Assembly: GCF_026240095.1 (NCBI RefSeq)
Contig: NZ_JAPIVG010000002.1
Location: 496,001 to 560,000, forward strand
Length of the DNA: 64,000 nucleotides
Origin: Pedobacter sandarakinus
Lineage (GTDB): Bacteria > Bacteroidota > Bacteroidia > Sphingobacteriales > Sphingobacteriaceae
Reading direction: 5' to 3'
The notes under the pieces: generated by a model
Database searches by the model: none
The model's input: the letters and a program-made list of their open reading frames with translations, nothing else
Told to the model about the DNA's origin: nothing
Position numbers and translations under genes: made by a program
Shown here: one piece after another, positions 15,465 through 15,572 of the stretch
How the letters are laid out: each line of letters starts with the position of its first letter
Numbering within the stretch: the first letter of the stretch is position 1

Positions 15465-15572
15465 ATGAAAATATTAAATCTTCAATCGCAAGGCGAACAT
15501 CATCTGAATAAGGTAAAAAATCTTTCTATTCAATTAATTGGGTTTACGGGTATGTGCTGTTGCATGTACTAA
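15465..15572 (+). CDS. Met/Cys-rich leader peptide (35 aa) upstream of metY
   Basis: A 35-codon ORF runs from ATG at 15465 to TAA at 15570-15572. Its C-terminus reads GFTGMCCCMY: three consecutive Cys codons (TGC TGT TGC, 15555-15563) flanked by Met codons on both sides. It begins nine bases after the P1 helix of the SAM riboswitch and ends 130 bases before metY. Position and composition fit a regulatory leader peptide whose translation reports Cys and Met charging. Codons 25-27 and the Cys codons can pair with RNA before metY. A small functional protein is the alternative. No described family is claimed here. Confidence 0.6.
   Translation: MKILNLQSQGEHHLNKVKNLSIQLIGFTGMCCCMY

Follow-up and report, generated by a model that had tools for sequence, protein, structure and literature searches.

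The window analysed here, the whole 64,000-nt stretch of the 4.09-Mb Pedobacter sandarakinus genome introduced above, carries a SAM-I (S-box) riboswitch aptamer at positions 15347..15457 of the forward strand (RF00162, 76.2 bits, E 4e-16; gathering score 44.4 bits). A whole-genome search recovered this aptamer as well, and placed the only two SAM aptamers of the genome upstream of metY and of a gene that we take to be metH-like. Reading the sequence directly, a 7-nt spacer (15458..15464, +) separates the aptamer from the ATG of a 35-codon upstream open reading frame (uORF; 15465..15572, +; TAA stop; MKILNLQSQGEHHLNKVKNLSIQLIGFTGMCCCMY), whose peptide C-terminus is Gly-Met-Cys-Cys-Cys-Met-Tyr (GMCCCMY). 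The original prediction had described both this ORF between aptamer and metY and its GMCCCMY end, and both were confirmed. The Met-Cys-Cys-Cys-Met codons (ATG TGC TGT TGC ATG; 15552..15566, +) form the predicted stall site, and relatives are enriched in Cys and Met at the equivalent place. A leader of 130 nt separates the uORF from metY (15703..17028, +), which belongs to the O-acetylhomoserine / O-acetylserine sulfhydrylase family (TIGR01326, 676 bits against a cutoff of 495). The latter is followed after 33 nt by a metX-like homoserine O-acetyltransferase gene (17062..18120, +; top matches TIGR01392 and NF001209, both under their curated cutoffs) and by a homoserine dehydrogenase gene (18199..19443, +; NF004976, 319 bits against a cutoff of 205); lying on the same strand, the three genes probably form one operon. 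Upstream of the leader, at 13931-15049, lies a gene for a cystathionine gamma-synthase-like PLP enzyme that satisfies Pfam PF01053 and scores under the cutoff of each specific model listed.

No terminator-like site was detected within 15000-15900, including the region 3' of the aptamer, where Rfam gave no meaningful match either, and no tandem repeats were found. Other RNA features of the window are a cobalamin riboswitch (50465-50649, -; RF00174, 108 bits), a Flavo-1 RNA (9747-9882, -; RF01705, 49.6 bits against a cutoff of 42) and a tRNA gene (33498-33582, +). In the genome as a whole, ATGTGYTGYTGY occurs five times and TGYTGYTGYTRR 64 times. None of the 35 loci inspected (5/5 and 30/64, respectively) revealed a further Cys-ended leader ORF; among them, only the metY leader contained the motif in a short ORF with an ATG start that does not lie in a long open frame.

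To assess conservation, metY was sought in a family sample of 201 genomes, 200 of which gave a match at E <= 0.001, and 110 leaders from the listed best metY matches (30 + 80 loci) were studied, representing 15 genera with 1 to 34 leaders each. A SAM aptamer was present in 104 of these, all with an ATG at -4 to +20 nt from the aptamer end, which in one leader (L129) is that of metY itself. Calling as uORF the longest ORF from any ATG in this interval, at least three Cys residues were found among the last 10 residues in 88/104 aptamer-adjacent ORFs, compared with 1/5144 mononucleotide-shuffled leaders. A looser score recognised a Cys/Met-ended uORF in 98 of the 104 leaders with an aptamer and in none of the six without (98/110 overall). 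Further leaders came from a set of named genomes, in which 75 of 80 loci have an aptamer and the upstream sequence of L277 is too short for a judgement, and from one further family, f8, of whose 30 loci 26 were examined and 25 have an aptamer. With all sets pooled, a uORF was obtained from 202/204 aptamer-bearing metY leaders, the exceptions being L129, whose first ORF is metY, and L315, which has no ATG in reach.

The 180 distinct uORFs (103 from the family sample and 77 from later sets) are strongly biased at their ends. At least three Cys occur in the last ten residues of 153 (88/103 family, 65/77 later sets), compared with 9/360 in a control using the two other frames. Cys accounts for 42.5% of the last ten residues and 2.7% of the residues elsewhere in the uORF, and Met for 13.3% and 1.7%, respectively. 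Among the 202 uORFs with duplicates kept, 192 have Cys within this ten-residue end, and the last Cys codon of 171 of these is at a distance of 0-2 codons from the stop. Typical ends, each followed by the stop codon, are CMCCCIQ in Pedobacter, ICMCCCC in Mucilaginibacter and CCCCC in genus g20. Conservation of the ORF and its Cys codons in related metY leaders had been proposed as the check on the original prediction; the ORF, its aptamer-adjacent start and its Cys/Met-rich end are all retained, which supports the suggested resemblance to amino-acid-sensing leader peptides.

The equivalent layout was found in the named genera Pedobacter, Mucilaginibacter, Daejeonella, Hymenobacter and Chryseolinea, and in MAGs labelled Cyclobacteriaceae and Flammeovirgaceae. 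Since Pedobacter belongs to the Sphingobacteriales, and Hymenobacter and Chryseolinea to the Cytophagales, the phenomenon as judged from sequence comparison spans two orders and is much broader than originally stated. We had considered a restriction of the Cys-ended uORF to one family, which the Cytophagales metY leaders ruled out; such leaders were few among 60 SAM loci sampled across other families and classes of the phylum, where no Cys-ended uORF was seen among the first five ATG ORFs per locus. That sample included one f8 metY leader with a Cys-less uORF at +9, and the Cys end has been lost in some lineages, as in six family-f8 uORFs that keep their start near the aptamer.

Selection acts on the encoded peptide, since both TGT and TGC are frequent at equivalent Cys positions, within Mucilaginibacter as well as within the pool of Hymenobacter, f8 and other loci, such that the amino acid is retained while the codon alternates. 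The Cys codons of Pedobacter uORFs are nearly fixed, and constraints on the RNA may add to selection there. Taken together, the uORF is almost certainly a selected and translated leader peptide. A peptide with a function of its own, for example in metal binding or as a natural-product precursor, would account for the Cys-rich end and for the UniRef name of one relative: three Pedobacter relatives of the peptide in protein databases are annotated as hypothetical proteins, one of them also as 'Natural product'. We regard this explanation as scarcely credible, because only the peptide end is conserved between genera while the remainder diverges, the ORF listing of the window contains no maturation gene between uORF and metY, and the ORF sits directly behind the aptamer in the leaders studied.

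The conserved end is more than a run of Cys codons. A [C/R]-M-[C/R] core is present in 133/180 distinct uORFs, compared with 16.4 expected from shuffled ends (summed over groups), indicating from the sequences that Met and Arg are part of the motif besides Cys. Sphingobacterium uORFs retain the position and end in Arg-Met-Arg (RMR) in 8/9 distinct cases, and all 10 Hymenobacter uORFs contain RM[R/C] with Cys behind it. The first Arg codon is CGA in 34/37 RM[RC] occurrences at metY, in AT-rich and GC-rich genomes alike. At the nucleotide level, CGA-ATG-CGN (Arg-Met-Arg) is conserved at or before the peptide end in Sphingobacterium and Hymenobacter metY leaders (e.g. L119, L302 and L292). Overall, 173/180 uORFs carry the [C/R]-M-[C/R] core, two or more Cys among their last ten residues, or both, and 7/180 have neither.

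These ends suggest that the peptide very probably senses the supply of cysteine and/or methionine through ribosome stalling. A true arrest peptide, in which the [C/R]-M-[C/R] nascent chain would stall the ribosome upon a sulfur metabolite regardless of tRNA charging, would explain the frequency of the core, the replacement of Cys by Arg, which is not a sulfur amino acid (Sphingobacterium mostly having RMR only), and the preference for CGA. However, long plain Cys runs (CCCCC) are common among the uORF ends and resemble codon-run sensing, and the remainder of the chain diverges between genera, making an arrest peptide improbable.

The position of the uORF points to coupling with the riboswitch. 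Its start lies 6-10 nt 3' of the aptamer in 162/180 distinct uORFs (range -3 to 16), thus within reach of the aptamer closing helix, as in riboswitch-controlled uORFs. This is where the closing helix ends and where an expression platform would begin. Bacteroidota seldom use Shine-Dalgarno pairing, and a closing helix ending 7 nt 5' of the AUG would be expected to hinder uORF initiation. In L129 (genus g19), which has no uORF, the metY AUG is found 10 nt 3' of the SAM aptamer, as though the next start codon, whatever its ORF, came under the control of the aptamer. Of 30 SAM aptamers ahead of other genes, 9 were followed at 0-20 nt by an ORF that starts with ATG and encodes 12 aa or more. On the basis of the start at the end of the closing helix, the arrangement in L129 and the irregular ORFs behind aptamers of other genes, we consider it likely that the riboswitch gates translation of the uORF. 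The original prediction had envisaged a second control on top of SAM sensing. The conserved uORF end supports a second control, but a separate layer is improbable given a uORF start beside the closing helix, and the second control is probably not separate from the first.

Gating could in principle suffice without sensing, the uORF serving as a relay whose translation or termination sets metY whatever residues it encodes. The six family-f8 uORFs that lack the Cys end would fit such a relay, as would the precedent of Mycobacterium tuberculosis ppe2, for which part of PMC11260477 describes a riboswitch-controlled uORF needed for expression of the next gene. Nevertheless, a relay offers no reason why Cys should be enriched 15-fold among the last codons, and we consider it very unlikely compared with a peptide end that reads amino-acid supply.

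The RNA between the uORF end and metY was examined for structures through which a stalled ribosome might be read out. In the window, two conserved predicted hairpins follow the uORF stop: hairpin 1 (15582..15613, +; CUUCC...GGAAG), present in the centroid fold but not in the MFE fold, and the covarying hairpin 2 (15614..15631, +), present in both. Structure prediction for Pedobacter leaders yielded the same two hairpins. CTTCC, belonging to hairpin 1, lies 8-10 nt after the uORF stop in 47/52 distinct Pedobacter leaders containing it, and four further distinct Pedobacter leaders lack it. Of the 52 leaders, 34 were aligned. Their GGAAG partner is invariant, which speaks neither for nor against hairpin 1 since the leaders were chosen by CTTCC and its 5' arm is thereby fixed. 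Three of the five pairs of hairpin 2 have changed on both sides. For the two hairpins as a whole structure, 99.7% of cells pair and 31 are double-changed; their covariation score was reached by 0/500 shuffles, and three of five measures exceeded the shuffles, while the numbers of pairs with double changes and of further pair types did not. CTTCC has a clear downstream partner (z -2.40, 52 Pedobacter leaders) and no significant upstream partner (z -0.18, same leaders). UACGC follows hairpin 2 in most Pedobacter leaders.

Pairing that involves the Cys codons themselves was less consistent. A predicted 9-bp hairpin covers them in the window (15549..15570, +; MFE and centroid folds of 15520-15660, region z -2.2), yet its covariation in Pedobacter was not beyond that of shuffles. 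Pairing between the Cys codons and downstream sequence was weak (mean z -0.4), with 25/174 leaders below -1.5 and the strongest values in small groups. A downstream GCAACA-like element that could pair with the Cys codons was found in the window and some Cytophagales and was rejected as a general feature on the same mean z. In Mucilaginibacter, a TAACACG-like element was recognised in 13/34 leaders and had the terminal codon region as its best partner in 9/13; the mean z for that region over the 13 was -0.61, compared with -2.80 for a downstream partner, so pairing of this element with the terminal codons is suggestive at most according to these predictions. Masking the Cys cluster left the predicted accessibility of the metY start unchanged (0.62 vs 0.62, 173 leaders). 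Terminator-like sites with short loops occurred in 20/174 metY leaders, compared with 7.2 expected by shuffling, and are thus confined to a minority; a long-loop scan gave 10/174, approximately the shuffled rate.

A second group of Pedobacter leaders gives a hint of the direction of control. This set comprises 15 SAM-riboswitch loci ahead of another gene, here termed SusC-type (a SusC/RagA-type receptor was shown by profiles in L016, the one locus so tested). A terminator-like hairpin lies directly 3' of the aptamer in 14/15, followed by a uORF, and in 10/15 a second terminator-like hairpin includes the last codons and stop of the uORF in its 5' arm; equally strong hairpins were found in 20% and 14% of shuffled stretches in the aptamer-side and uORF-end tests, respectively. 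The uORFs have 24 codons in 11/15 cases and contain RM[RC] in 13/15. Putative tandem control with a uORF end of the form RM[RC]xxC-stop is found at L006, L008, L009, L010, L016, L018, L019, L021, L025 and L026. Because the uORF end is part of the 5' arm of the terminator-like hairpin, a ribosome held there would prevent termination, and by analogy these leaders are the best available hint that genes are switched on when ribosomes stall at peptide ends of this kind. Other Cys-ended short ORFs were observed ahead of SusC-like genes near SAM aptamers at L011:2345-2461, L028:2360-2470 and L014, in the last case 97 nt 3' of the aptamer. The ends seen in this group are ...CTCCMCCCC, ...MRCCC and ...GMRCCC, each before the stop. 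A thioredoxin-like gene stands between the Cys-ended ORF and the SusC-like gene in L011 and L028, the SusC-like call being profile-tested in L011 only.

Arguing from the SusC-type leaders of the same genus, we consider it reasonably probable that stalling raises metY. The same sensor could operate with the opposite sign, such that a stall under cysteine shortage lowers metY and spares sulfide for cysteine synthesis: MetY and cysteine synthase would compete for sulfide, and no terminator architecture at metY sets the direction. We consider this unlikely, since a stall in the SusC-type leaders would prevent termination and the MetY family model TIGR01326 also covers cysteine synthases, which makes a rise of MetY under cysteine shortage sensible.

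We therefore hypothesise the following mechanism, with stalling that raises metY. Binding of SAM likely blocks translation of the uORF. When SAM is low, the ribosome would translate the uORF and likely stall at Met-Cys-Cys-Cys-Met if charged tRNA-Cys or tRNA-Met is scarce, and this stall is predicted to raise metY expression. The stall may act in a Rho-dependent manner, with the stalled ribosome masking a site close to the stop codon at which Rho would enter, or through the hairpin pair 3' of the uORF stop. Given the size of the ribosome footprint, the edge of hairpin 1 would be reached by ribosomes that complete the uORF, and those stalled at the Cys codons would stop short of it. Consequently, metY would be fully on only when SAM and cysteine are both short. 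Based on sequence features and on analogy with known leaders, this scheme of a SAM-gated uORF, a stall upon Cys/Met shortage and raised metY is on balance the one we favour. Weighing against it are the small share of metY leaders with terminator-like sites, the unaltered accessibility of the metY start, the weak pairing of the Cys codons, the loss of Cys in some lineages, the RMR ends of Sphingobacterium and the seven uORFs with neither motif. The SusC-type attenuator, too, is an analogy drawn from other loci, and the two SAM aptamers of this genome precede metY and the metH-like gene.

The individual components have precedents. According to part of PMC1262725, poly-cysteine leader ORFs were predicted ahead of mycobacterial cys operons and, for those without a terminator, Rho-dependent termination was proposed by analogy to the tna operon; PMC9031893 and PMC13236596 credit Canestrari et al. 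2020 with their experimental testing. By analogy, Rho-dependent termination could fit the metY leader as well. As far as these accounts go, the mycobacterial ORFs resemble the metY uORF in being short, with a Cys run near the stop and no obvious terminator, ahead of sulfur genes. They are leaderless, whereas here a SAM-I aptamer (~110 nt) lies 5' of an ORF that is not at the predicted transcript 5' end, the motif includes Met and Arg, and the hosts are Bacteroidota. A further contrast is that the uORF ends 60-239 nt 5' of metY in 195/197 leaders.

Control of a uORF by a B12 riboswitch is experimentally known for M. tuberculosis ppe2, where, according to part of PMC11260477, the order of aptamer, uORF whose initiation it appears to control, and downstream target gene matches that at metY, with SAM-I replacing B12 here. 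The ppe2 uORF overlaps ppe2 and acts mainly by reinitiation, and the section concerned describes no amino-acid codon run. The uORFC-8-2 motif ahead of cysS in Rhodobacterales likewise contains Cys codons in tandem, for which sensing of charged tRNA-Cys was predicted; it differs, on the portion of PMC8632094 that concerns it, in its intrinsic terminator, in its downstream tRNA synthetase gene and alphaproteobacterial hosts, and in that no riboswitch is described there. In Bacteroidota, we found only general mentions of leader-peptide control in the open-access literature, with attenuation suspected for amino-acid operons of F. psychrophilum (PMC9723704) and for some leaders of B. thetaiotaomicron (PMC7366714).

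Compared with the usual SAM-I / S-box arrangement, the aptamer itself is alike and above the gathering score (RF00162), but no terminator-like site lies behind it and the uORF start codon occupies the position of the expression platform. In the clostridial ubiG operon, an S-box and a Cys T-box together make a single sulfur operon responsive to SAM and cysteine through RNA, as proposed here for metY; its T-box reads tRNA directly and its S-box lies on the antisense transcript, in contrast to the translated peptide and sense-strand aptamer at metY. As in ribosome-mediated attenuators, the metY leader has a conserved short ORF whose putative regulatory codons are close to the stop. Both Cys leader peptides and uORFs under riboswitch control have been described before; in the open-access literature we found no account of a SAM riboswitch combined with a leader peptide of the Cys/Met kind.

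In its widest form, our proposal is a two-input gate, in which a terminator-less SAM riboswitch would determine the translation of a sensor peptide, the peptide would read Cys/Met by ribosome arrest at its [C/R]-M-[C/R] end, and metY would answer to shortage of both SAM and amino acid. At genes for outer-membrane receptors, the same end would serve again 3' of a distinct riboswitch terminator, constituting a general class of sulfur-sensing peptides in Sphingobacteriales and Cytophagales. We offer this extended version tentatively, as a possibility in which we place somewhat more doubt than trust. Riboswitches and leader peptides have mostly been described as separate devices, whereas here a riboswitch appears to target a translated sensor peptide directly, so that two sulfur inputs would converge on one RNA. 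This arrangement occurs in two orders of Bacteroidota, and the short leader makes it directly testable. If true, it would account for some short proteins currently named 'hypothetical' or 'Natural product', three of which were found here.
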